This document shows, in pieces, positions 5,598 to 33,228 of a stretch of 34,107 bases of DNA. The notes beneath the pieces were generated by a model. That model was not told where the DNA came from. It saw nothing but the letters and a program-made list of their open reading frames with translations, and did no database searches. Within the stretch, counting starts at the first letter, position 1. Each line of letters begins with the position of its first letter. The position numbers were made by a program, and so were the translations under genes. Source of the stretch: Gammaproteobacteria bacterium (GTDB lineage: Bacteria; Pseudomonadota; Gammaproteobacteria; JACCYU01); assembly GCA_013696315.1 (NCBI GenBank), contig JACCYU010000211.1, forward strand, positions 1 through 34,107, read 5' to 3'.

Positions 5598-6751
5598 GTG
5601 TAGTGTCCCAGTAATACGTAGCACATTTATTGCTTTGTTTTCGGGTATCTTTGTTGCGGGAGATGCCCGATGGTGACCGGACGACCTAAGCCTGCGTTGA
5701 TGCTGAGTGTGCAAGAGCGCGAGCAGTTGCAATCGATGGCGCGATCGCGTTCGCTGCCGGCCGCGCTGGTGCAGCGTGCCAAGCTGGTGTTGGCGTGCGC
5801 TGCTGAGCCCAGCAATCGAGCGGTGGCGCACCTGCTGGGCGTGCATGCGGCCACGGTAGGCAAGTGGCGCAGCCGCTTTATTGAGCGGCGTATCACGGGG
5901 CTGCACGATGAGTTGCGTGCGGGCAAGCCGCGTTCGATTGACGATGAGCGGATTGCCGAGTTGATTCGTCGCACGCTGGATACCAAGCCGCGGGCTGGTA
6001 CGCACTGGAGCGTGCGCGGCATGGCGGCCGAGGCGGGGCTGTCGAAGAGTGCGGTGCAGCGCTTTTTCAAGCTCTTTGGCCTGCAACCGCACCGCACGCG
6101 TGGCTTCAAGCTCTCGACCGATGCGTTCTTTGTGGAAAAGCTGCGCGATGTGGTGGGGCTGTACCTGCATCCGCCGGACAAGGCCATCGTGCTGTCGGTG
6201 GACGAGAAATCGCAGTGCCAAGCACTGGCGCGCACGCAGCCGATGCTGCCTTTGGGACTGGGCTATGTCGAAGGCATCACGCATGACTATGAGCGCCATG
6301 GCACGACCATGCTGTTCGCCGCCCTCAACGTGCTGGATGGCAGAGTACTGGCGCAGTGCAAACCGCGCCACCGGCATCAGGAATTTTTGTCCTTTTTGCG
6401 ACATATTGAAGCCAACGTCCCGGCTGAGTTGGAGGTGCATTTGGTGCTCGACTACGGCACCCACAAACATCCCAAGGTCAAGGCTTGGCTGGCGCGACGC
6501 CCAAGATGGCATCTGCACTTCACCCCGACTTACGCGTCTTGGCTCAACCAAGTTGAGCGCTTCTTTGCGCTCATTACCGGCCAAGCCATCCGGCGCGGCT
6601 CGTTCACAAGCGTCAAAGAACTGATCGCCAAGATCGATCACTTCATTACTCACCACAACCAAAATGCGCAACCCTTCGTGTGGACCGCTACCGCCGATTC
6701 GATCTTAGCCAAGCTGGCTAGACTATGCCAGCGTATTTCTGGGACAGGACA
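5598..6751 (+). mobile_element. IS630-family insertion sequence, about 1.15 kb
   Basis: The ends are imperfect inverted repeats. The left end reads TGTAGTGTCCCAGTAATACG from 5599; the reverse complement of the right end reads TGTCCTGTCCCAGAAATACG; 17 of 20 match. TA dinucleotides flank both sides (5596-5597 and 6752-6753). Removing the element and one TA leaves CCTAGCC, i.e. a CTAG site, the preferred target described for IS630. One transposase gene fills the element. It lies between the tyrosine phosphatase and the 3' end of rne, 38 bp beyond the rne stop codon. Confidence 0.88.
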
Positions 6752-6782
6752 TAGCCTCACGCGCTTGCGAGCACTGCTATAA
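5670..6782 (+). CDS. IS630-family transposase
   Basis: 370-residue DDE transposase. The N-terminal helix-turn-helix region (about 20-150) is followed by a catalytic core with Asp in VLSVDEKSQ, Asp in [11 protein letters not shown] and Glu in [10 protein letters not shown] 5670 has GGGAG seven bases upstream. Two oddities: the second catalytic strand normally reads D-N-Y-[GA]-T-H in this family, but the Asn codon is missing here, which may impair catalysis; and the frame runs through the right inverted repeat (encoding RISGTGH), leaves the element and stops in host flank at 6780-6782. The reading frame is otherwise intact. Whether the element is active cannot be told. Confidence 0.9.
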
Positions 6783-17078: not shown

Positions 17079-18908
17079 ATGACCGCGCACACCGAACCCG
17101 CGTTCGATATCGATCGCTTTTTAAGTAATCTCACCCACCGTCCAGGCGTGTATCGCATGCTGGATCCACGCGGCAAGTATTTGTACGTTGGCAAGGCCAA
17201 GGATCTAAAGAAAAGGGTGTCCAGCTACTTTCAGCGGCGCGGACATGGGCCACGTATCGACACCGTGGTCGCCCAGACCCAGCAGGTGGAGGTTACGGTT
17301 ACCAGCACCGAGGCCGAGGCGCTGCTGCTGGAAAATAACCTGATCAAGGAGCATCGTCCCCGTTACAACGTGGTGCTGCGCGACGACAAAAGCTATCCGT
17401 ATATTTACGTTTCTACCGAGCAGGACTATCCCAGATTGTCGTTTCATCGCGGCGCGCGGCGCGGCAAGGGCCGTTATTTCGGGCCTTATCCTAATGCTGG
17501 CGCGGTGCGCGAGACCCTGAATCTGCTGCAGAAGCTCTTCAAGGTGCGCCAGTGCGAAGACAGTTTCTGCCGCAACCGCACGCGGCCGTGTCTGCAATAT
17601 CAGATCGACCGCTGCACCGCGCCCTGCGTCGGCTTCGTCGACGGCGATGAGTACCGGATCAACGCGCAGCATGCGATCAAGTTTCTGGAAGGCAAGACCG
17701 GCGAGGTGATCGAGGCTCTGATCGAGCGCATGGAAGCGGCTTCCGCGCGCCTTGAGTTCGAGCGCGCGGCCGCTTACCGCAACCGGATCGAGAGCCTGCG
17801 CCGCATCACCGAACAGCAATACGTCAGTGGCGAGGGCGGCGATCTGGACATCATCTCCGTTACGCTGGGACAGGGACTGGCAGGTGTGCAGGTGTTCAAC
17901 ATCCGCGCCGGTCACAATCTCGGCAACAAGAGCTTTTTCCCTCGCGCGCCTGAGGATATGCATGAGGCGGAACTGCTGACTGCGTTTATGGGGCAGTATT
18001 ATCTGACTCACGACGTGCCGGCCGAGATCATCGTCAGCCACCAGCCCGCCGATTTCGAGTCGCTGATCGGGATGCTGACGACCCGGCGCGGCATGAGCGT
18101 GCGGATTACGTCCACCGTACGCGGCCCGCGCGCGCGCTGGCTGGACATCGCGAACCGCAATGTCGTGCATGCGCTGGGCGAACGCCTGGCTTCCAGGGCA
18201 GACATGCAGCGTCGCGTTGACGCACTGCAGGAAGAGCTGGACCTCGCGGCGGCGCCGGGCCGCATGGAATGTTTCGACATCAGCCACACGATGGGCGAGG
18301 CGACGGTGGCGTCGTGCGTGGTGTTCGATGCGCAGGGCCCGGTCAAATCCGATTATCGTCGGTTCAATATATCAGGCATAGAACCCGGCGATGACTACGC
18401 CGCCATGCGCCAGGCCCTCACGCGACGCTACACGCGGCTGAAGGCGGGCGAGGGCAAGCTGCCGGACATTCTGTTTATTGACGGTGGCAAGGGCCAGGTC
18501 CGGCAGGCGGTGGAAGTGCTGGAAGAACTGCAGGTGGCGGGTGTGACTATCATCGGCGTGGCGAAAGGCGAGGGTCGCCGGCCAGGACTCGAAAGTCTGA
18601 TTGCTAGCGACCGGCGTACGCCCGTGGTGCTGTCGGCGAACTCGCCCGCGCTACACCTGGTCCAGCAGATACGCGACGAGGCGCATCGATTCGCGATCAC
18701 CGGCCATCGTCAGCGCCGCGCCAAAAGCCGCACGCAGTCACCACTAGAGCAGATTCACGGGCTGGGACCAAAAAGACGGCAGAATCTGCTGAAATATTTT
18801 GGCGGCATGCGTGGCATAAGCCGGGCCGGGATCGAGGACCTCGCCAAGGTGCCAGGCATCAGCGCGGGTACGGCACGAGAGATATACGATGCCCTCCATG
18901 CGTATTGA
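17079..18908 (+). CDS. uvrC: Excinuclease ABC subunit C
   Basis: 609 residues; makes both incisions in nucleotide excision repair with UvrB. An N-terminal GIY-YIG nuclease (GVYRMLD, YLYVGKAKDLKKRV, about 20-95) is followed by a Cys-containing region, the UVR domain that contacts UvrB (about 204-240), an RNase H-like C-terminal nuclease (MECFDISHTMGEA; ILFIDGGKGQV) and tandem helix-hairpin-helix motifs at the end. ATG 17079 gives the standard N-terminus; the frame is open further upstream through the CYTH region but without homology. Its end overlaps pgsA by 20 bp, implying translational coupling. Confidence 0.97.
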   Translation: MTAHTEPAFDIDRFLSNLTHRPGVYRMLDPRGKYLYVGKAKDLKKRVSSYFQRRGHGPRIDTVVAQTQQVEVTVTSTEAEALLLENNLIKEHRPRYNVVLRDDKSYPYIYVSTEQDYPRLSFHRGARRGKGRYFGPYPNAGAVRETLNLLQKLFKVRQCEDSFCRNRTRPCLQYQIDRCTAPCVGFVDGDEYRINAQHAIKFLEGKTGEVIEALIERMEAASARLEFERAAAYRNRIESLRRITEQQYVSGEGGDLDIISVTLGQGLAGVQVFNIRAGHNLGNKSFFPRAPEDMHEAELLTAFMGQYYLTHDVPAEIIVSHQPADFESLIGMLTTRRGMSVRITSTVRGPRARWLDIANRNVVHALGERLASRADMQRRVDALQEELDLAAAPGRMECFDISHTMGEATVASCVVFDAQGPVKSDYRRFNISGIEPGDDYAAMRQALTRRYTRLKAGEGKLPDILFIDGGKGQVRQAVEVLEELQVAGVTIIGVAKGEGRRPGLESLIASDRRTPVVLSANSPALHLVQQIRDEAHRFAITGHRQRRAKSRTQSPLEQIHGLGPKRRQNLLKYFGGMRGISRAGIEDLAKVPGISAGTAREIYDALHAY

Positions 18909-19521
18909 TGGAGAGTTGTCCGGCAAAGCGCCACTAGCCGCCACGGTGGCAAAGCGGCACCGCGTTATCATCAATATTCCGATTGTCCTTACGTTACTGC
19001 GAATCGCCCTGATACCGCTGTTTGTGCTGGTGTTTTATTTACCCTATGGATGGGCTTATCCGGCGAGTGCAGCGATATTCACGCTGGCTGGCATTACCGA
19101 CTGGCTGGACGGATATCTTGCGCGCCGTTGGCGCCAGATCTCAGCGTTCGGGGCGTTTCTAGATCCGGTGGCGGACAAGCTCATGGTGGTCGCGGCACTT
19201 GTGATGCTGGTCAGCAGGCACGGCACCGTGTGGCTGGCGGTCCCGGCGATCATCATCACCGGACGCGAGATTGCCGTCTCCGCGTTGCGCGAATACATGG
19301 CGGAACTGGGTCAGAGCGGCATCGTGGCAGTATCGTTTACCGGAAAAATCAAGACTACATGCCAGATCATCGCGCTGCTGTTGCTGCTGTATCACTACCC
19401 GCTGTTCGGCCTGCCCACGCACGCCATCGGCGTAGCACTCATGTATATCGCCGCCGGACTCACCTTGTGGTCGATGGTTTTTTACCTGCGCGCCGCATGG
19501 CGTACGCTGGATGGCGGATGA
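18889..19521 (+). CDS. pgsA: CDP-diacylglycerol-glycerol-3-phosphate 3-phosphatidyltransferase
   Basis: 210 residues, inner-membrane CDP-alcohol phosphatidyltransferase that makes phosphatidylglycerol phosphate. The motif D-x2-D-G-x2-A-R-x8-G-x3-D-x3-D is complete (ITDWLDGYLARR, then FLDPVADK). Several hydrophobic segments are visible: IVLTLLRIALIPLFVLVFYL, the region after DPVADK, and the C-terminal third. ATG 18889 overlaps uvrC; an ATG three codons on is possible. The N-terminus is about 20 residues longer than in E. coli, and the extra residues would be encoded largely within the overlap. Confidence 0.95.
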   Translation: MPSMRIDGELSGKAPLAATVAKRHRVIINIPIVLTLLRIALIPLFVLVFYLPYGWAYPASAAIFTLAGITDWLDGYLARRWRQISAFGAFLDPVADKLMVVAALVMLVSRHGTVWLAVPAIIITGREIAVSALREYMAELGQSGIVAVSFTGKIKTTCQIIALLLLLYHYPLFGLPTHAIGVALMYIAAGLTLWSMVFYLRAAWRTLDGG

Positions 19522-19556
19522 CGATTGCTTGACAGCGACTCGCCGATACCTAAAAT

Positions 19557-19848
19557 GCGTGACTCATGCGGGGTGAGCCGGATGAAGAATTCGGTCCAGT
19601 GAATCGAATTCCCGGCGAACGACCGGTCAGGGATGACCGGGCCGGTGTCAGACAACGCGATTATGTTGCGCCATGGATGGCCTTCAATCAGTCAGACAAG
19701 AGCGGGAATAGCGCAGTTGAATGAGCCGGATCAAGGCAAATGTCCGGTGCACATTTGCCCTGGCGAACGACCGGGCAGGGATGCCCGGGCCGGTGTAAAT
19801 CGGAGTGATGAAGCTTCGCCATGGATGGCAGCAATGAGTCGGATTAAT
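19557..19848 (+). repeat. Two tandem 148-bp units abutting tRNA-Gly
   Basis: Landmarks recur exactly 148 bp apart: GAGCCGGA (19575, 19723), GGCGAACGACCGG (19614, 19762) and CCATGGATGG (19671, 19819). Each unit holds two hairpins at matching positions. Hairpin 1 is GAATTCG/CGAATTC (19587-19611) in unit 1 and GGCAAATGT/ACATTTGCC (19735-19759) in unit 2. Hairpin 2 is CCGGTCA-GGGA-TGACCGG (19623-19640) and CCGGGCA-GGGA-TGCCCGG (19771-19788). Unit 2 opens with GCGGGAATAGCGCAGT (from 19702), nearly the tRNA-Gly 5' end. No gene lies here; this accounts for the whole pgsA to tRNA-Gly gap. Confidence 0.88.
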
Positions 19849-19923
19849 GCGGGAATAGCTCAGTGGTAGAGCACAACCTTGCCAAGGTTGGGGTCGCGAG
19901 TTCGAATCTCGTTTCCCGCTCCA
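19849..19923 (+). tRNA. tRNA-Gly(GCC)
   Basis: 75 nt with encoded CCA. The acceptor GCGGGAA pairs with TTCCCGC. The D-arm is GCTCAGTGGTAGAGC, the anticodon arm is CAACC-TTGCCAA-GGTTG with anticodon GCC, and the T-arm contains GTTCGAATC. It corresponds in position to glyW of E. coli. A degenerate copy of its first ~24 nt lies 147 bp upstream. Confidence 0.97.
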
Positions 19924-21529: not shown

Positions 21530-21604
21530 CATACAGGCGAATGTCGATGGCCCGTTACATGCGTCGGTGCCAGCGTGAAACCGTTCGATTACCGAGGTCT
21601 CATC

Positions 21605-22563
21605 ATGGCGCGACCCGTCTGGAAAGGGCATATCTCGTTCGGCCTGATCAATATCCCGGTGACGCTTTACTTCGCCGAACGGCGCTCCGACCTGCACTTC
21701 CGCATGCTGGACAGCCGCAACATGGCGAAGATGCGTTATGAGCGGGTCAACGAGGACTCAGGCGAAGAGGTGCCGTGGGATCAGATCGTCAAGGGCTTCG
21801 AGTACGGCGATGGCAACTACGTGTTGCTCGATGACGATGATTTCAAAAAGGCTGCGGTCGAAGCCACGCAGTCGGACGACCTGGAGGGCTTCGTCGAAGC
21901 CAAGGCGATCGACTACGTTTACTTCGATAAGCCCTATTATCTGGTGCCCGGCAAAAATGCCGAAAAGGGTTACGCGCTGCTGCGCGAAACCCTGCGTCGC
22001 ACGGGCAAGGTCGGCGTCGCCAGAGTCGTCATTCGTACACGGGAATATCTCGCTGCGCTGTTGCCGGAAGGCGATGCGCTGGTGCTCAATATGCTGCGCT
22101 ATCATCAGGAGCTGCGCCAGCCCGACGAGTACGAACTGCCCGGGAAGTTTCCAACAAGGAGATCGAAATGGCGGAACAACTGGTCGAATCCATGACCGTG
22201 GACTGGCATCCGCCGCAATATCACGAAGAATACCGCGATGCGCTGATGAAATGGATAGATAAGAAGGCGCGCGCCGGCGACAAGGGCGTTGCGCCTCCGG
22301 CGGAATCTGAACAATCAGACGCGAGTGAGGACGCGCAGATCATCGACATGATGGCGCTGTTCAAAAAAAGCGTGAAGAAAGATGGCGGTACCAGGCGCAC
22401 CAGTGGCGCCAAGTCCCAGGCAAAGAATCCCCCCACAAAAAAGCCCCATACAAAAAAGCCCCACCCAAATAAATCAGCGGCCAGCGCTAAATCCAAGACT
22501 CAGGTTAAAACAACAAGCCGGCGTCCGGCATCCGCCGCCGGCCGCAAGCGCAGCGCTGGCTGA
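21605..22563 (+). pseudogene. ku: Ku protein for non-homologous end joining, frameshifted
   Basis: Bacterial Ku binds DNA ends as a homodimer and recruits LigD. The N-terminal part starts MARPVWKGHISFGLINIPVTLY and follows the Ku fold to YHQELRQPDEYELPG. There the frame breaks: near 22141-22155 the reading jumps one register, and the downstream frame continues with VSNKEIEMAEQLVESM, the conserved Ku segment, then a Lys-rich DNA-binding tail to TGA at 22563. In the original frame translation would run into missense residues and stop at 22195, deleting part of the dimer and the tail. One missing base in CCCGGGAAGTTTCC explains it. ligD follows 24 bp later and is intact, so a sequencing error is as likely as decay. 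Confidence 0.9.
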
Positions 22564-22587
22564 GCGCGGGTCACGCGGGCCGGTTTC

Positions 22588-25233
22588 GTGAGCCTCAAGG
22601 ACTATCAGCGCAAGCGCGACTTCCGCAAGACTACCGAACCGGAAGGCGGCAAGCGATCACGGCGCAAGGGCAATCTGTATATTATTCAGAAACACGACGC
22701 GCGACGTCCGCATTACGATTTTCGACTCGAACTAGATGGCGCGCTAAAAAGCTGGGCGGTGCCCAAAGGCCCGAGTCTTGACCCGGGCGAAAAACGTCTT
22801 GCCGTGCAGGTCGAGGATCATCCGCTTGCTTACGGTGAGTTCGAGGGCATAATCCCCAAAGGTCAATACGGCGGCGGTACCGTGATGTTGTGGGATCGCG
22901 GTCGCTGGGAAGGCGTCGGTGACATTGAGGCGAGCTTTCGGTACGGCAAACTCAAGTTCGAACTGTCCGGCGAAAAGCTGCGCGGCCGCTGGACACTCGT
23001 GCGCATGGGCGGCAAGGCCACTTCGCAAGGCAAGAACTGGCTGCTGATCAAAGAAAAAGATGACATCGCTGGCGCGTGCAGTGCACCCGATGTGCTGAAG
23101 GAACAGCCGCAGAGTGTGAAATCTGGACGCTCGATGGATGAAATTGCGGCTGCCGAAGATCGGGTATGGAAAAACGGCCAGTCGGCAAAACCCCGCAAGA
23201 AAAAAACAGGCGGTGACCGAACGCCAAGAACATCCGGATCGAAAAAAGGGAATACGCGCACTTCACCGCACGCCGATACGCGGGCCGCCGAGCTTGCGAA
23301 CGCGCGCAAGCGCGACATGCCGCGCGATGTCAAACCGCAACTGGCGATCCTGGTCAAAGAGGCGCCAAAAGGCGATGGCTGGCTGCACGAGATCAAGTTC
23401 GATGGCTATCGGCTGCTGTGCGCAATCAGCAACCGCAAGGCGCGCCTGATCACCCGCAACGGCCATGACTGGACGCGCAAGTTTCCGCGCATCGCCGCGG
23501 CCGCGGCCGACCTTCACATGAGCGATGCGTGGCTGGACGGCGAACTGGTCGCGATGAAGGCCAGCGGCGTCAGCGACTTTCAGACGCTTCAGAATGCTCT
23601 CAAGCAGGGCGCCGACGCGGAGCTCGCGTATTATATTTTCGATCTGCCGTTTTGCGATGGCCACGATCTCACCCGCACGCCGCTGATCGAGCGCAAGCGG
23701 CTGTTGCGCCAGTTGCTTAGCACGAGCGACGCCGGGCCGTTGCGCTACAGCGATCACCTGCAAGGGGAAGGCGGGCGCATGTACGGCCAGGCGTGTTCGC
23801 ACGCGCTGGAAGGCATTATCTCCAAGCGCGCTGACAGTCCGTATCAATCACGACGCGCACGCACATGGGTCAAAATCAAGTGCATGCGCGCCCAGGAATT
23901 CGTGGTGTGCGGCTACACCGATCCGGCCGGTTCGCGCAAATATTTCGGCGCCTTGCTGCTGGGTTATCACGACCCGGACGGTCGGCTCGTTTACTGCGGT
24001 CGCGTGGGTACCGGCTTTGACTCGAAATCGTTAAAGGCCGTGCATGAATTGCTGTCCGCGCGGACACGCAAAACCTTGCCAGTGCGGGAATTGCCGAAGG
24101 ATTTCGACAAGCGTGGCGTGTACTGGGTGCGGCCCGATCTGGTTGTCGAAGCGACCTTCGCGAACTGGACGGATGACGGCTTGCTGCGGCAGGCGTCGTT
24201 TAAGGGCATGCGCGAGGACAAAAAGCCGCGCGAGGTCGTGCGCGAGCAGCCGACAGCCGTGCCTGCGCGCTCCGCCGCTTCGCGTAAGCCCGCGAGCATC
24301 CAATCAAAAACGACAACCGCAACCCGTTCGAATTCGCTACAGGCCCGTATCGCCGGCCAGCACCTGACGCACCCTGATCGAATCCTGTATCCAGGGCAAG
24401 GCGCCACCAAGCAGGATCTCGCGCTGTTTTACGAGCGCATCTCGGACTGGGTGCCGCCGCATATAGCAGAACGGCCGCTATCGCTGGTGCGCTGCCCGCA
24501 AGGGAGTGGCAAGAGTTGTTTTTTTCAGAAGCACATCACCGACGCGCTTCCGGACGCGCTCAAGGGCGTCACCGTGCAGGAGAAAGAAAAGCGCGCGACA
24601 TACATCACGATCAGCGACCTGTCCGGCCTGATCGCGCTGGTGCAGCTCGGCGTGCTGGAGATCCATCCCTGGGGCAGCCGCGCGGACAATCCGGAGAAGC
24701 CGGATCGTCTGGTGTTCGATCTCGATCCTGACCCGGAACTAGGCTGGAAAGAGGTCATACAGGGCGCGCGCATGTTGCGCGAACGTCTGGACGAACTGTC
24801 GCTGAAAAGCTTCGTCAAGACTTCGGGCGGCAAGGGCTTGCACGTGGTCGTGCCGGTGACGCGGCGCACGAGCTGGGAGGAATTCAAGGCGTTTTCGAAA
24901 GGCGTCGCGCAAGATGCCGCGCGCTGTGATCCGCAACGCTACATCGCGACCATGAGCAAGGCAAAGCGCAAAGGGAAAATATTCATCGACAGGTTACGCA
25001 ACGGCCGAGGCGCCACCAGCGTGGCCGCATATTCCACGCGAGCGCGCGCGCAAGCGCCGGTGTCGACGCCGGTAAGCTGGGATGAACTGGACGACATCGA
25101 AGGGCCCGGCGCCTTCACCTTGGCCAATCTTCCAGCACGGCTGGAATCATTGAAGGCGGACCCGTGGCAAGACTTTTTCGAGACGCGCCAGTCGATTACC
25201 ATCGCCATGCTGAAAGCGGTGCGCGCGGCCTGA
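22588..25233 (+). CDS. ligD: Multifunctional DNA repair ligase LigD (PE-LIG-POL)
   Basis: 881 residues. The N-terminal 3'-phosphoesterase domain (about 1-180; QKHDARRPHYDFRLELDG supplies the metal-binding His and Asp) is followed by a Lys/Arg-rich linker, an ATP-dependent ligase with catalytic Lys270 in EIKFDGYR, its OB domain to about 560, another linker, and a C-terminal archaeo-eukaryotic primase-type polymerase with metal Asp711 and Asp713 in VFDLDPD. This order matches Pseudomonas LigD. It starts at GTG 22588. Paired with ku it forms a complete NHEJ operon if the ku frameshift is not real. It trims, fills and seals Ku-bound breaks. Confidence 0.96.
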   Translation: MSLKDYQRKRDFRKTTEPEGGKRSRRKGNLYIIQKHDARRPHYDFRLELDGALKSWAVPKGPSLDPGEKRLAVQVEDHPLAYGEFEGIIPKGQYGGGTVMLWDRGRWEGVGDIEASFRYGKLKFELSGEKLRGRWTLVRMGGKATSQGKNWLLIKEKDDIAGACSAPDVLKEQPQSVKSGRSMDEIAAAEDRVWKNGQSAKPRKKKTGGDRTPRTSGSKKGNTRTSPHADTRAAELANARKRDMPRDVKPQLAILVKEAPKGDGWLHEIKFDGYRLLCAISNRKARLITRNGHDWTRKFPRIAAAAADLHMSDAWLDGELVAMKASGVSDFQTLQNALKQGADAELAYYIFDLPFCDGHDLTRTPLIERKRLLRQLLSTSDAGPLRYSDHLQGEGGRMYGQACSHALEGIISKRADSPYQSRRARTWVKIKCMRAQEFVVCGYTDPAGSRKYFGALLLGYHDPDGRLVYCGRVGTGFDSKSLKAVHELLSARTRKTLPVRELPKDFDKRGVYWVRPDLVVEATFANWTDDGLLRQASFKGMREDKKPREVVREQPTAVPARSAASRKPASIQSKTTTATRSNSLQARIAGQHLTHPDRILYPGQGATKQDLALFYERISDWVPPHIAERPLSLVRCPQGSGKSCFFQKHITDALPDALKGVTVQEKEKRATYITISDLSGLIALVQLGVLEIHPWGSRADNPEKPDRLVFDLDPDPELGWKEVIQGARMLRERLDELSLKSFVKTSGGKGLHVVVPVTRRTSWEEFKAFSKGVAQDAARCDPQRYIATMSKAKRKGKIFIDRLRNGRGATSVAAYSTRARAQAPVSTPVSWDELDDIEGPGAFTLANLPARLESLKADPWQDFFETRQSITIAMLKAVRAA

Positions 25234-26507: not shown

Positions 26508-26555
26508 GATGCGGCTGCGAAGACAGTGCTTATAATGCAACGAAGGGACGCTTCA

Positions 26556-29500
26556 ATGAAAGCTCTGCAACATGCCTGCAAGCCGCGCGAAACCGTTTTC
26601 GACAAGACGCGGCGTGACACAGTGCTCGATCTTGGTGATCTCATCCAAGACCGCATCGATGTGGAAGACTTCTTCGCGGAAAATCACGTCACCGAGGGCA
26701 TGGAAATCCTGCTGACGGAAGGCTTCCGCCGGCTGGAGCGTAAATCCACACAAGGCGTTTTCAAGCTGACGCAGGCGATGGGCGGCGGCAAAACCCATAA
26801 CCTGCTCGCCTTCGGTTTGCTGGCCAGGAACCCGAGTTGGCGTCGGAAGGTTATGGCCGGGTTCTACCAGCCGGCCGATATTGGCGAAGTCCGGGTCGTC
26901 GCGTTTTCGGGTCGCGAGAGCGACGCACCGTATGGCTTGTGGGGCGCGATCGCCGCGCAGCTTGGCAGGAAAGAGCAGTTCAAGGATTATTACAGCCCGT
27001 TGTCCGCGCCGGGACAGACGGCCTGGGTCAACCTGCTCAAGGGCGAGCCGCTGGTTATCATGCTCGACGAGTTGCCACCGTATTTCGAGTACGCGAAGTC
27101 GAAGACGATCGGCAACTCGGATCTCTCGGTGGTCACGGCCACCGCGCTGTCGAATCTCCTGGTCGCTCTGGGCAAAGACGAGCTCAGCAATGTCTGTCTG
27201 ATCATCGCCGACCTGACGGCATCGTATGCCGGCGGCAGCTAGAAGATCATTCACGCCCTGAAAGACCTGGACAAGGAGACCGGCCGTAGCGCGATGAACC
27301 TGGAGCCGGTGCGCATGAACACGGATGAGTTTTATCACATTCTGCGGAAGCGGATATTCGCGGAATTACCCACCGAGGACGAGATCGCGGAGGTCGCGCA
27401 AGGCTACGCTCGCGCCGTGCGCGACGCGCACCAGATGGATGTCACCAATGCCTCACCGGAGCAGTTCGCGCAGCGCATCGCGGAGTCTTATCCGTTCCAT
27501 CCTGATATTCGTGACCTATACGCCCGGTTCAAGGACAACAGCGGCTTTCAGCAAACGCGAGGACTGATACGCCTCATGCGCATCGTGGCCTGCCGGTTGT
27601 GGGAAACCGACGAGGCAGCCAGCAAGTATCTTATCGCCGCGCATGATGTTGATTTGAACGATAGAGAGACCTTGACCGAGATCAACCAGATCAACAACAC
27701 GCTGGAGGCCGCCATCTCGCACGACATCGCGTCCGGCGGTCAGTCGGTGGCCGAGATCATGGACACCAATCTCGGCGGTCATGACGCCCGTGATGTCATG
27801 CGTCTGCTGTTCGTGGCGTCGCTGAGCAACGTGTCCGGCGGCACCAAGGGCCTGACTGTATCTGAAGTCATTGCCAATCTCTGCGCGCCGGGCCGCGATA
27901 TATCGAAACTCCGCAACGAGGTCATCAACCGTCTGTTCACCGCCGCCTGGTATCTGCACACCAGCCGGGATGGCCGGCTGTTTTTCAAGAACGTGCAGAA
28001 TCTGGTGGCGCGGCTGCACACCACGGCCGAGAGTTACCTGCGCGACCAGTCGATCAAAGAACTTAAAGAGCGGCTTGTCGAGCTGTTCAAACCGGTGAAC
28101 GCCTGGTGCTACCAGCGCGTGATGCCGCTGCCGGCGGTCGATGAGATCGATGTCGCCCAGGACAAAGTGGTTCTGATTATTTCCGAGCCGCATTCCCAGG
28201 GTCTGAATCCCGACCTCAGGAAGTTTCACGAGAATCTGGACTTCAAGAACCGCGTTTGTTTTCTCACCGGCCAGCGCAATTACGACGCGGTGCTCAATTC
28301 AGCCAAAGAGCTGAAAGCGATCAACCACATCATTGGCGAAATAATCAGCGAAGGTACGCCGGACAACGACCCGCAGCTCGTGCAGGCACGCGAACTCCTG
28401 GACCGCGTTCAGACCCAGTTCCTGAGCGCCGTGCGCGAGACCTTCACCACGCTCTTTTATCCAACGCGGGAACGGCTGATGTCCGCCGATTTTCTGATGG
28501 AATTCAGAGGCAACCAGTATCAGGGCGAGGATCAGATCATCAAGGCGCTCAAGGACAAGATGAAGTACACGGAAGATATCAGCGGCGAGACCTTTCGCAT
28601 AAAGGTCGAGGAGCGGCTGTTCACGCAGAAGGCTATGCCATGGAACGAGATCCAGCGGCGCGCCGCGATGAACCCGGCATGGCAATGGCACCGCGCCGAT
28701 GCGCTGGACAAGCTCAAGGACGAGAGCGTGCACCGGGATATCTGGCGGGAGCAGAGCGGTTACGTCGAGAAGGGGCCTTTCGCAAGGCCCGCTACCGGTG
28801 TCAAGGTACAGCAACTATCGCGAGACGACGAAACAGGCCTTGTTAAACTGCGTATCACGCCGGTGAATGGCGATGCGGTCTATGTCGAGACCGGCGGCCC
28901 CGCAACGACCGCATCACAAAAGCTCGCCGGACGCGACTATGAAACCAGTGAATTCAGGGTCTCCTTCCTGGCCGTCGATTCCAGGGGCGAGTACGAGACG
29001 GGCGAGCCGGCGCCCTGGTGCAACCAGATCACCATCCGCTCGCGCGTCTACCAGCATGGCGACGCGCGCATGGTGGAGCTGCGGGCCGCGCCGCCGGCGC
29101 CAATCCGGTACACCAAAGGATGGCTCCGATCCAAAGCTGCAGGGCGGCCGCTACGATGAGCCTTTCGCCGCGCCCGCCGGCACGCGCCTGGTACTCGCGG
29201 TTGCCGAGTACGATGGCATTGTCTCGGAGTTGCACAAACGGGAATCACCTGGCACAAAGATGAAGGCGAGAAACCTGTCGATAAGGCTCTGCCGGCCACT
29301 TGGCGGCCCGCCGACGGTTTAACCTTCAGTGAGACGCGCGTTTGCTATGGCTTTATCGAGCGCCTGCGCAAACACGCGGGTCGGGCCGGCGTTCAGCGGA
29401 TAGGCGTGCTGGTCGATGACAGTCAATGGGCTGAGTTCATTCTGGCTGATCGCATGGCGCTGGATGCCGATCAGATCGAACGCACCGTCGAGCAATTGCG

Positions 29501-29624
29501 GGGGCTGATCGAAGCGGGTGAAATCAGTATCGAAGCCAGCTTCATCGCATTCGCCACAGGCCAGAATCTGCTCGACTATATTCAGGAGTTAAAGGTGGAG
29601 CTACGGCGCGGTGAGGTCGAGTAG
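26556..29624 (+). pseudogene. DUF499 (COG1483) AAA+ ATPase of a defence cassette, three lesions
   Basis: Reconstructed length about 1,020 residues, normal for the family. Walker A is QAMGGGKTHN (Lys79) and Walker B is LVIMLDELPPYFEYA. Lesion 1: an in-frame TAG at 27240-27242 (codon 229), after SYAGGS; the same frame resumes at once with KIIHALKDLDKETGRSAMNLEP. Lesion 2: one extra base in ACCAAAGG near 29115 ends the frame at 29159 while the family sequence continues one register on (DGSDPKLQGGRYDEPF). Lesion 3: one missing base near 29243 (GGGAATCACC) returns to the first register (TWHKDEGEKPVDKALPATW), ending at TAG 29624. AAGGGA precedes ATG 26556. DUF3780 starts five bases later. These ATPases accompany anti-phage DNA methylases. 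Confidence 0.88.
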
Positions 29625-29629
29625 TAAGT

Positions 29630-30277
29630 ATGGCCGCACACTCGAAGGTGACCTACGAAGGCTTCGGTTTCTGCCCGCGGGAATCCGCGCATCATTTTGT
29701 GGTGAACATCCCGGCCAGCAACCGTGAGGATGTGGCCATCTCCGAGCACTTCACGTTCGATGCCATCGAAGGGCGCAGCCCGCCAACGTTCGGCGCGGGC
29801 CAGAACGACGGCAAGCTGCGCTCGATCCTCGCGCGGCCGAAGTGGGGCGCCATCGCCGACGAGCTGCGCGTGGCGTTCAACCGTCGCCTCAAGGCGCAGG
29901 GGATCAAGGCGGGCCGCTGGAAGACTGGCATCAATCCTGTTTCGCGGTTATTGGGCAAGGAGCTGACGTTGCTGGCTTGGGGCATCGAGGAAGCCGATCC
30001 CGCGCTGATCGCAACGGCCATCAAGAACTGGCAGGGCCTTGTACCGGAGGAGCGCTGGTGGTTGTTCACCATGACCGCCGCCGCCACCGGCCACGCCGTA
30101 CATGGTCGCGGCCACGGCTGGCGCAAGGCGATCCGTTACGCGCTCACGGAAAACCCGGTGACGGACGCGCCGCATCAGCCGCCACCGATGTTCCGGCTGG
30201 TCGCGCGGGAAAATGAAATTACAGCGGGAAGGCCGGACAAACGGAAGCGCAAATCTTCCGGCAAGATCGCGTCATGA
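29630..30277 (+). CDS. DUF3780 protein of the DUF499/DUF1156 defence cassette
   Basis: 215 residues. The start VTYEGFGFCPRESAHHFVV and the segment RWKTGINPVSRLLGKELTLLAWGIEEAD fit DUF3780, a family found almost only between DUF499 ATPases and DUF1156 methylases. The tail is basic (RPDKRKRKSSGK). The biochemical role is unknown; a nucleic-acid-binding or bridging subunit is only a guess. It lies 5 bp after the ATPase stop and overlaps the methylase start by 4 bp (ATGA), so expression is coupled. Confidence 0.85.
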   Translation: MAAHSKVTYEGFGFCPRESAHHFVVNIPASNREDVAISEHFTFDAIEGRSPPTFGAGQNDGKLRSILARPKWGAIADELRVAFNRRLKAQGIKAGRWKTGINPVSRLLGKELTLLAWGIEEADPALIATAIKNWQGLVPEERWWLFTMTAAATGHAVHGRGHGWRKAIRYALTENPVTDAPHQPPPMFRLVARENEITAGRPDKRKRKSSGKIAS

Positions 30278-33228
30278 ACGACTCGCCGCGCGCGGCGGAG
30301 AATGCGCCCTCGATAAACTCCAAGCTCGCTGCCGATGCGGATGCCAATACCTTTATCGAAATCCAGTTCCCCGTCTCAAAGCTCTCCAAGGAAAGCTACA
30401 AGGAGCGCAAGGCCAACTACAGCCAGACATTGACCGGGCTCGGCAAATGGTCGGGCCGCAAGCCGCTGATCATGGTCCGCGCCACCATCCTGGGTCTGCT
30501 GATGCCGGCGAGCGACGATCCGCAAAAAGATCGTGAGATCTTTCTGAAGGTCCTCACCATGGACGAGGTGGGCTTGTGGCGGCGCAAGCGCAAGAGCATT
30601 TCTCTGCGCGATATCCATGCGCGGCTGAGTGACGCGGAGCGTCGATCATGGTTCGACGCCGACGCGAATCCCGAGCGCCCTGGATTGATAAGCGGCTTGA
30701 CCCGCGTGCAGAAAGACGAACTGCAAAGACTTGTTTTCGACCGCCTGAGCTACGACGGCAAGCTGGTTTACTACGACCGGCCCGAGCAGATTGACGGCCC
30801 ATCGGAGCAGGCGTGGATTGAGATCAACGCCCACCTGAACACGCACGCGAACAATCTGCCGGAACTCGTGCGCGAGCTGGGCATGCGGCGTTTCGGTCAC
30901 GCGCCTAGAGTCGGCGATGCGTTCTGCGGCGGCGGCAGCGTGCCGTTCGAGGCGGCGCGCATGGGTTGCGAAGCGTATGGCTCGGACCTGAATCCGGTCG
31001 GCGCTTTACTCACCTGGGGCGCGCTGAACATCGTCGGCGGCGGCGAGGAAGTCGCCAAGCCGGTGCGCGCGGCGCAAAAAAAGGTCTGCGAAGCCGTTGA
31101 CCGGCAGGTCACCGAGTGGGGCATCGAGCACAACGCGCAGGACTGGCGCGCGGACGCCTATCTTTATTGCACCGAAACGATTTGCCCGGAATGCGGCTGG
31201 AAAATACCGCTCGCGCCATCCTGGGTGATCGGTGAGAAGACACATACGATTGCGCGCCTTGAAGCCGATGAGCAGAATCGTTGCTTTCACATCGAAATAC
31301 ACGAGGGCGTTCCGAAAGAAGAACTGGCTGACGCCCGCGGAAGAGGCACGGTGCGTAGCTCACGTCTGGAATGTCCGCATTGTCGGAACTCCACGCCGAT
31401 AAATGTCATTCGCGGCGACCGGCGCGGTGACGGTGTCAAAACCTACGGTTTGCGTTTGTGGGAGAACGAAGACGTGACCCCGCGCCCGGACGACGTGTTT
31501 CAGGAACGGCTTTATTGCATCCGCTGGGTGGAAACCTGGATTGACGATGCGGGCACGCCGCATCGAAAACGTCACTATCGCGCGCCCGACGCGGCGGACC
31601 TGGAGCGCGAGCAGAAGGTGCTGACGTTGCTGCAAGAGCGCTTCGCCGACTGGCAGGCCAGGGGCTATATTCCCAGCCGGCGGATCGAGCCGGGCGACAA
31701 AACCGATGAGCCGATCCGCACGCGCGGCTGGACGCATTGGCATCATCTGTTCACGCCGCGGCAGTTGTTAGTGCATGGTCTAATCATAGAAGACGTTTTC
31801 GAAGAAAGTGCAGGAGATGCAGCCAAGGTCTCCGGGCTATTCATTGCAGGCCGGTGTGCCGATTGGGATTCTCGTCTAGCTCGATGGATAGCAGATGCTA
31901 CGAAGGAGAATGGAGCGCAAACGTTCAGTAACCAAGCTTTGAATACGCTGAGCAACTTTTATGGAAGGCCTTTAAGTCTTCTGACCACAACCATTTTAGC
32001 TCCGATCGAAAGCTCTAGGCTCTTTGGCGGAGCGCTGGTAGCAACATCTGATGCCCGCGAAGTGGAAGACGACTCGGACATCTGGGTAACCGATCCCCCC
32101 TACGCCGACGCCATTAACTACCACGAGCTTTCCGAGTTCTTCCTCGCCTGGTACGAAAAGCACCTGCCCGGGCTGTTCCCAGACTGGCACACTGACAGCA
32201 AGCGCGCTTTAGCGATCCGGGGATCGGGAAGAGACTTCCGGCAGGGCATGGTCGACGCTTACCGGAATCTGGCTTCCCACATGCCGGATAACGGCCTGCA
32301 GGTAGTCATGTTTACGCATCAGGATGCGAGCGTATGGGCGGATCTCGCCTTGATTCTGTGGGCCGCGGGACTGCGCGTTACGGCAGCTTGGACTATTGCG
32401 ACCGAGACGGAATCCGCGCTGAAGGAAGGCAACTATGTGCAGGGCACGGTGTTGATGGTGCTGCGCAAGCAGATGGCCGGGGAAACCGCGTTTCTTGACG
32501 AGATCGTGCCGCAAGTCGAGATCGAAGTCGAAGCTCAGCTTGCCTCTATGCTCAAACTTGAAGACAAGGACGACCCCAATTTCAGCGACGCTGATTACCA
32601 GCTCGCCGCCTACGCCGCCGCGCTGCGCGTGTTGACGCAGTACAAGGGCATCCAGGAGCTGGACGTGAACTACGAACTCGCCAGCGAGCGAAAACGGGGC
32701 CAGACTTCGCCCATCGAGAAGATCATCGAAGACGCGGTCAAGACCGCCAGCAACTTTCTCGTGCCCAAAGGTATCGACAAGCCTCTGTGGCGGCGGTTGA
32801 GCGCGGAAGAAAAGTTTTATCTGAAGGCCCTCGAAGTCGAGTCCCACGGCGACTATCGCAGCGGCGTGTTTCAGGAGTTCGCGCGCGGCTTCGGCGTGCG
32901 TGAGTACGATGATCTTCTACACAGCGGCAAGGCGAATCAGACGCGGCTCAAAACGGCCTCGGAATTCAAGCGCAAAGGACTGGGTGGCGACGGCTTCGCG
33001 GCAACACTGTTGCGTCAGGTGCTGTTCGCCGTGTTCCGCGTCGCCGAACGCGAGGAAACCAAAGAGGGTATGACCTGGCTCAAAACGGAGATTGCCGATT
33101 ACTGGGCGCAGCGGGAGAATATCGTCGATCTGGCCCGTTATCTCAGCGGCTTGCCAATGCCGCACTGGGCGCGGGACGTCGCCGCGGCGCGTCTATTGGC
33201 CGGCGCGGTGGAAAACGATCACGTGTGA
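30274..33228 (+). CDS. DUF1156 (COG1743) Zn-ribbon adenine-specific DNA methylase
   Basis: 984 residues. SAM-binding motif I lies near 215-235 (DAFCGGGSVPFEAARMG, then SDLNPVGALL). A Zn-ribbon follows (Cys304/Cys307 in CPECGWK; Cys367/Cys370 in CPHCRN), then catalytic DPPY at 607-610 (WVTDPPYADAINYHE), with a long insertion between motif I and DPPY likely to contain target recognition. It modifies adenines so that the partner system can tell self from phage DNA (inferred from family). From about 31768 to 32052 the codons turn AT-rich (TTA, CTA, ATA, AGG) against a GC-rich background. The frame is intact. Confidence 0.92.
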   Translation: MNDSPRAAENAPSINSKLAADADANTFIEIQFPVSKLSKESYKERKANYSQTLTGLGKWSGRKPLIMVRATILGLLMPASDDPQKDREIFLKVLTMDEVGLWRRKRKSISLRDIHARLSDAERRSWFDADANPERPGLISGLTRVQKDELQRLVFDRLSYDGKLVYYDRPEQIDGPSEQAWIEINAHLNTHANNLPELVRELGMRRFGHAPRVGDAFCGGGSVPFEAARMGCEAYGSDLNPVGALLTWGALNIVGGGEEVAKPVRAAQKKVCEAVDRQVTEWGIEHNAQDWRADAYLYCTETICPECGWKIPLAPSWVIGEKTHTIARLEADEQNRCFHIEIHEGVPKEELADARGRGTVRSSRLECPHCRNSTPINVIRGDRRGDGVKTYGLRLWENEDVTPRPDDVFQERLYCIRWVETWIDDAGTPHRKRHYRAPDAADLEREQKVLTLLQERFADWQARGYIPSRRIEPGDKTDEPIRTRGWTHWHHLFTPRQLLVHGLIIEDVFEESAGDAAKVSGLFIAGRCADWDSRLARWIADATKENGAQTFSNQALNTLSNFYGRPLSLLTTTILAPIESSRLFGGALVATSDAREVEDDSDIWVTDPPYADAINYHELSEFFLAWYEKHLPGLFPDWHTDSKRALAIRGSGRDFRQGMVDAYRNLASHMPDNGLQVVMFTHQDASVWADLALILWAAGLRVTAAWTIATETESALKEGNYVQGTVLMVLRKQMAGETAFLDEIVPQVEIEVEAQLASMLKLEDKDDPNFSDADYQLAAYAAALRVLTQYKGIQELDVNYELASERKRGQTSPIEKIIEDAVKTASNFLVPKGIDKPLWRRLSAEEKFYLKALEVESHGDYRSGVFQEFARGFGVREYDDLLHSGKANQTRLKTASEFKRKGLGGDGFAATLLRQVLFAVFRVAEREETKEGMTWLKTEIADYWAQRENIVDLARYLSGLPMPHWARDVAAARLLAGAVENDHV

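Follow-up and report, generated by a model that had tools for sequence, protein, structure and literature searches.

The regulatory RNAs CsrB/C, RsmX/Y/Z, RsmV and RsmW carry several hairpins with the loop ANGGA, the consensus bound by CsrA/RsmA, and are products of one or a few dedicated sRNA genes. The element described here has hairpins of the same kind; unlike these sRNAs, it is dispersed (3–148 copies per carrier genome examined whole), has two sites per unit, is carried in tRNA leaders and 3' UTRs, and has no Rfam match. A repeat tied to a tRNA gene is known from E. coli tyrT, where the tandem repeats of rtT lie beside the gene and carry a copied piece of the tRNA. There, tRNA 3' ends are copied downstream of one tRNA, whereas in our case 5' ends are copied upstream of many. 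REP/BIME palindromes are dispersed intergenic hairpins mobilised by RAYT transposases. The element resembles them in being dispersed and intergenic and in forming inverted pairs between convergent genes in Xanthomonadaceae DHS20C11, but it is larger, with three hairpins and conserved loops, its insertion at tRNAs duplicates a long stretch of target, and its copy number is not tracked by Y1 transposases.

Each half of the mechanism proposed below has a precedent (PMC7694677, PMC8144298). First, RsmU (sRX061), from the comEA 3' UTR of Xanthomonas, is a GGA-hairpin RNA that binds RsmA (PMC7694677); the element is likewise a GGA-hairpin RNA found in 3' UTRs in the same wider group, but RsmU is single copy and has no tRNA link. 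Identity of the two was rejected, as the comEA 3' UTRs of Xanthomonas sp. AmX2 and Pseudoxanthomonas scored at best 11 bits, near background. As a separate observation, the comEA 3' UTR of Pseudoxanthomonas spadix and P. wuyuanensis (L288, L285) is rich in ANGGA, as in Xanthomonas RsmU; RsmU has been reported from Xanthomonas only and may be older than thought. Second, E. coli rrA, rrB and rrF are described as CsrA- and Hfq-interacting sRNAs from rRNA operons (PMC8144298). Like the RNA proposed here, they are CsrA-interacting small RNAs from stable-RNA transcripts; unlike the element, they lie between rRNA terminators, in three copies, and are not mobile.

CsrA-sequestering RNAs are known, but to our knowledge a transposable kind borne in tRNA leaders is not, and none was found in the literature searched.

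Two repeat units in front of tRNA-Gly

The window (the whole stretch of DNA analysed, 34,107 nucleotides from a gammaproteobacterium) contains two 148-bp units within 19568–19848, between a sigma-70 type promoter and a tRNA-Gly gene. The features of this region are:

18889–19521: pgsA (PF01066)
19529–19556, + strand: sigma-70 type promoter TTGACA-16-TAAAAT (11/12 consensus matches)
19568–19572, + strand: truncated copy of the tRNA-Gly 5' end, GCGGG, which opens unit 1 (alignment to the empty site, junction of GCGTGACTCAT and GCGGGAATAGC)
19572–19681, + strand: element copy 1, comprising P0, P1, HP1, HP2, GGCCGGTGT box and HP3 (model match 118 bits, E 6e-27, the copy being in the model seed)
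19587–19611, + strand: hairpin 1 (HP1) of copy 1, arms hypervariable but changing in a compensatory manner, loop without GGA (double-sided changes in 9/9 pairs)
19623–19640, + strand: hairpin 2 (HP2) of copy 1, loop C-AGGGAU-G, matching the CsrA/RsmA consensus (loop GGA in 124/138 copies)
19670–19681, + strand: hairpin 3 (HP3) of copy 1, GCC-AUGGAU-GGC, a second CsrA/RsmA consensus site (loop GGA in 115/138 copies)
19702–19717, + strand: duplicate of the tRNA-Gly 5' end as far as the D-loop, which opens unit 2; target-site duplication (15/16 bases; same layout at many other tRNAs)
19720–19829, + strand: element copy 2 (model match 110.6 bits, E 5e-25, likewise in the seed)
19735–19759, + strand: hairpin 1 of copy 2 (sequence comparison of the units, covariation)
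19771–19788, + strand: hairpin 2 of copy 2, loop C-AGGGAU-G (loop GGA counts)
19818–19829, + strand: hairpin 3 of copy 2, GCC-AUGGAU-GGC (loop GGA counts)
19830–19848, + strand: spacer from the element to the tRNA, taken to be the leader half of the target duplication after divergence (recent copies have the duplication starting right at the end of the element; L067, 39 nt)
19849–19923, + strand: tRNA-Gly(GCC), intact (ARAGORN; Rfam RF00005, 71.9 bits)

The same TTGACA-16-TAAAAT promoter drives tRNA-Gly directly in relatives, and at the same-genus empty site L292 it is joined to tRNA-Gly; considering its position here, both units would sit in the leader of the tRNA-Gly transcript. The layout set out in the original prediction held in each respect. 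The units are offset by 148 bp (19611–19681 against 19759–19829, 80% identity, ungapped), and hairpin 1 occupies corresponding positions in both, its arms differing almost wholly with pairing kept. Pairing in hairpin 2 survives a T:A to G:C swap (CCGGTCA-GGGA-TGACCGG to CCGGGCA-GGGA-TGCCCGG), and GCGGGAATAGCGCAGT at the start of unit 2 is a copy of the 5' end of the tRNA-Gly gene 147 bp further on. Tandem Repeats Finder did not report the two-unit array, presumably owing to the divergence of the units.

Some further features of the window were recorded. Adjoining genes for Ku and LigD, the bacterial end-joining pair, lie beside the tRNA cluster (21575–25233), and a short run of 3.3 tandem copies of CAAAAAAGCCCCACA separates them at 22421–22469. 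At 26526–33228 are a DUF499 gene, divided between two open frames, and DUF3780 and DUF1156 methyltransferase genes, all matching the like-named PADLOC models and, weakly, Hma; this is a candidate defence locus in which DUF499 is possibly broken. A transposase gene with a DDE_3 domain (IS630-like) is at 5670–6782.

A structured RNA family with two fixed loops

BLAST with the two-unit region found eight further places in its own genome, and six of the seven loci fetched lie upstream of other tRNAs (Ser, Thr-GGT, Trp, Thr-TGT, Val and Lys). As the covariance model was seeded only from nine own-genome copies, its matches in other genomes are out-of-sample. The search of genome and relatives that had been proposed as a check on the prediction returned about 30 copies of a ~110-nt element in the own genome and further copies in other genomes: 28 in a same-genus genome, 17–18 each in G002, G013 and G042, and 13 in G021, in which a seven-unit tandem array with a period of 145 precedes tRNA-Met. 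In an even sample of Gammaproteobacteria, 29/204 genomes had a match at E <= 1e-6. Carriers found by a pattern scan and then confirmed with the covariance model include Solimonas, Nevskia, Stenotrophobium, Stagnimonas, Pseudoxanthomonas, Lysobacter maris and Thermomonas, with tandem arrays in Luteimonas saliphila (six units) and Xanthomonas sp. AmX2 (three units). Whole-genome counts reached 148 in Xanthomonadaceae DHS20C11 (G064) and 39–40 in two Solimonas, with 21, 17, 14, 10, 6 and 3 in others; the whole genome of Stenotrophomonas maltophilia D457 had none. An Rfam search of the window at gathering and permissive thresholds gave tRNA matches only, phage and plasmid records gave no BLAST match to the element, and pattern matches in viral contigs all scored below 18 bits by the model. 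A different intergenic repeat occurs at L131:1463–1700 (D457) and L193:117–374; its two CsrA-type loops (CAUGGAUG, CAGGGAUG) are enclosed by a long GGGCCGGGGUGG/CCACCCCGGCCC stem, and it may be a second family of paired CsrA-hairpin repeats in Stenotrophomonas.

The element is a structured RNA with a covarying structure. The fold of copy 1 was taken from covariation in own-genome and multi-genome alignments and consists of a short outer helix, P1 topped by the hypervariable hairpin 1, hairpin 2, the GGCCGGTGT box and hairpin 3. Among ten own-genome copies aligned with plain MAFFT, RNAalifold gave 26 pairs, 18 with compensatory changes. Across 138 copies from the own genome and relatives, aligned to the model, 93% of cells were paired and 819 changes were double-sided; the covariation score was 0.563, compared with 0.144 when shuffled and at most 0.039 with the partners slid; this alignment leans towards its own model, whereas the MAFFT alignment does not. 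The observed covariation was never reached in 500 shuffles. Other copies with compensatory changes, the absence of which had been named among the grounds for refuting the prediction, are present in number. Folded singly, the units have unremarkable energies (z = -1.3 and -0.7); what supports the structure is the comparison between copies. Ordinary folding energies are what chance duplication or an assembly error, with no functional RNA behind it, would give. We assign that explanation a negligible probability, considering that independent copies occur in dozens of genomes, and regard it as refuted by covariation far above shuffles in the 138 copies and by the empty site in a same-genus relative described below.

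All stem pairs vary among the 138 copies while the loops of hairpins 2 and 3 stay fixed. The loop contains GGA in both hairpins in 106/138 copies, with conservation of G 99%, G 98% and A 95% in hairpin 2 and G 94%, G 96% and A 98% in hairpin 3. The exact form C-ANGGAX-G occurs in 87/138 copies for hairpin 2, where 15 further copies have pentaloops, and in 97/138 for hairpin 3; the median GGA–GGA distance is 44 nt. Hairpin 1 has neither a conserved GGA nor a fixed loop, and the loop constraint is therefore specific to hairpins 2 and 3.

Insertion at tRNA genes and elsewhere

The two units of the window are insertions. In the same-genus genome G001, the interval between pgsA and tRNA-Gly (L292; PgsA 93% identical) is an empty site at which TCTAAAATGCGTGACTCAT runs directly into GCGGGAATAGCTCAG; in the window, the same promoter is followed by GCGTGACTCATGCGGG, both units and then GCGGGAATAGC once more. 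Three genomes of the same class (G013, G042, G047) are also empty at the corresponding position, and G002 (other genus, same family) has an apparent decayed element copy before tRNA-Gly.

At other tRNA genes, the first 18–40 nt of the tRNA are usually copied before the element, the copy ending after a G/GG that lies in the D-loop or the anticodon arm. In the least diverged cases (L067, L055, L076), the duplication is 32–39 nt long and starts at or near the element 3' end. The ~20-nt spacer before the tRNA is therefore best read as its leader half, and the unit length as 148 = 110 + 38. The reading that the duplication stops precisely at the mature 5' end of the tRNA was rejected, since in these three cases it extends into the leader. 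Different targets are directly duplicated at different sites, namely tRNA Lys, Val, Trp, Thr, Arg, Ser and Phe, a terminator and atpC. At the terminator (L024:1480–1650) the element lies within a terminator-like hairpin, the first half of which is directly duplicated (26/26). A 51-nt duplication spans the atpC start codon (L082), and the same pattern is found at the first codons of hslU (L027), the gene start being restored at both. No duplication is seen at most of the copies that follow genes, nor at most of those in DHS20C11, and the latter shows that insertion chemistry is not uniform. At tRNAs, insertions that keep the tRNA intact must be at a selective advantage, a possible reason for the restriction of hits to 5' halves.

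Ten tRNA transcription units of the own genome have the element immediately upstream in sense. Among 178 copies examined, a tally in which at least one locus was entered twice under two names, 36 are in sense within 60 nt upstream of a tRNA, none is antisense there, and ten are convergent with a tRNA. Copies stand 5' of many tRNAs, mostly accompanied by a duplicate of the 5' end of the tRNA concerned, which bears out the tRNA-anchored repeat family offered among the original candidates; this and the structured RNA, the candidate that the covariation substantiates as a dispersed element, are one and the same thing. The prediction did not extend to the fixed loops of CsrA type, to copies behind protein genes or to the distribution over the class.

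At six loci common to G000 and G001, the tRNA copy is 94% identical (107/114) and the element 83%; identity is 70% in the 20 nt preceding the tRNA copy and 69% in the spacer that follows the element. The copied tRNA piece appears maintained, for which selection, conversion or re-insertion could be the cause. Alternatively, the element might be a leader that governs, in cis, the maturation of the downstream tRNA: the copied 5' end would compete for the 3' acceptor strand, and CsrA bound to the hairpins would tip the balance between copied and real 5' ends. The excess of that copy's identity over its flanks speaks for such a leader, as do the element–tRNA distance, usually held at ~20 nt, and the minimum-energy fold of the window precursor, in which GCGGG from unit 1 is paired to CCCGC at the tRNA 3' end. 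Even so, we consider it improbable: the same element and loops also occur behind protein genes and at a terminator, away from any tRNA; tRNA-Gly unit 1 has a truncated tRNA copy, and at Thr-TGT none is recognisable; and repeated re-insertion or conversion might equally keep the copy fresh. Exchange or re-insertion is suggested at tRNA-Trp, as two same-genus species bear different hairpin-1 types at the same place.

Behind protein genes, the element may provide the stop codon: among the 72 non-tRNA copies that start with GGTG, 28 have a GGTGAG whose TGA closes an open frame 60 or more codons long, compared with at most 3 cases for any other position; examples are rpmJ (L022, by eye), a rimK-like gene (L003) and Xanthomonas sp. 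AmX2 (L200). In DHS20C11, copies often form convergent pairs, and some are inserted in GGA loops of other copies (L301–L318; GCCATGGATG/GGTGAG, GCACATG/GGTGAG).

The agent of mobility was sought among two known types. No reverse transcriptase (RVT_1) was found in G000, G001, G021, G042, G057 or G064, and a retroelement driven by RVT_1 was rejected, as several of these genomes are high-copy. No Y1 transposase was found in G064 (148 copies), G062 or G013, and Y1 presence does not track copy number, for which reason REP/RAYT mobilisation was also rejected.

These data bear on an unlikely alternative in which the units are a selfish REP/MITE-like repeat, with hairpins that serve only its own mobility at no gain to the host and GGA loops that bind the transposition machinery or exploit CsrA as a host factor. 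A copy number of 0 to 148 across genomes of the wider group, nesting at CANGGATG loops, the long target duplication at tRNAs and a hairpin 1 as hypervariable as in REP palindromes would all suit such a repeat, and a selfish element might retain GGA loops for its own ends. Against it are the loops fixed to the CsrA consensus amid drift, even in copies common to different genera, the sense bias at tRNAs together with the 3' UTR placement, and the finding of neither a reverse transcriptase nor a consistent Y1 partner.

Probable CsrA binding and a proposed distributed sponge

The high-affinity CsrA/RsmE site is given as an ANGGAX hexaloop set directly on a stem (PMC4005645) and as A/U-CANGGANG-U/A (PMC4353343). 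Compared with the published consensus, the loop and the closing C–G pair of the element match, and the next pair outward is variable. CsrA/RsmA-sequestering RNAs are recognised by ANGGA in hairpin loops at two or more sites per RNA, a pattern that the element shows, most copies having GGA in the loops of both hairpins. On this likeness, binding of CsrA by the element hairpins is highly probable; a spacing of 44 nt between the two GGA sites would suit a single CsrA dimer, and arrays in tandem would multiply the CsrA sites as in CsrB. The loop motif does not equal function, since, in the RsmU study, changing all four GGA motifs abolished neither RsmA binding nor the phenotype (PMC7694677). csrA was present in 22/22 genomes tested, a weak test because the gene is near-universal in the class; in the own genome, it lies directly upstream of a tRNA-Ser bearing two elements. 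CsrB (Rfam RF00018) was above threshold in 0/11 genomes tested.

We favour, at a probability of roughly 0.6, the reading that the units are a mobile, non-autonomous CsrA-binding RNA element acting as a distributed CsrA sponge. In transcribed DNA, the element would insert after G/GG; where it enters a tRNA gene, ~40 nt of target would be duplicated, so that an intact tRNA is rebuilt downstream. Each copy would be transcribed in sense and would fold into the hypervariable hairpin 1 and two C-ANGGAX-G hairpins able to bind a CsrA/RsmA dimer. We infer that tRNA-leader copies are made from tRNA promoters and released by RNase P at the tRNA 5' end, that CsrA is titrated, and that the element is mobile at the present day. 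The tRNA-leader processing array, also among the original candidates, is likely. Copies behind protein genes would end up in 3' UTRs; together with tRNA-leader copies they would form the sponge, its supply tracking stable-RNA transcription. More tentatively, this could be a CsrA-wired transposable RNA, in which tens of tRNA-leader copies are one distributed, growth-rate-linked sponge that replaces sRNAs of the CsrB/RsmZ type and the copied tRNA 5' end is under selection.

The mobile RNA family is real and apparently undescribed and, from its loops, most likely a CsrA-binding module. With very strong covariation, it would make a new Rfam RNA family. In Xanthomonas, CsrA/RsmA is a master regulator, yet the classical antagonist sRNAs are reported to have no homologue (PMC7694677). 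Considering this gap, the lack of any CsrB match above threshold in the 11 genomes tested, and the many copies with the exact CsrA loop, the element is a concrete candidate for a missing CsrA antagonist in Luteimonas, Pseudoxanthomonas, Solimonas, Nevskia and at least one Xanthomonas. The findings suggest a mobile element able to spread a protein-binding site over tRNA leaders and 3' UTRs, coupling CsrA activity to tRNA synthesis, such that tRNA transcripts may double as CsrA sponges.
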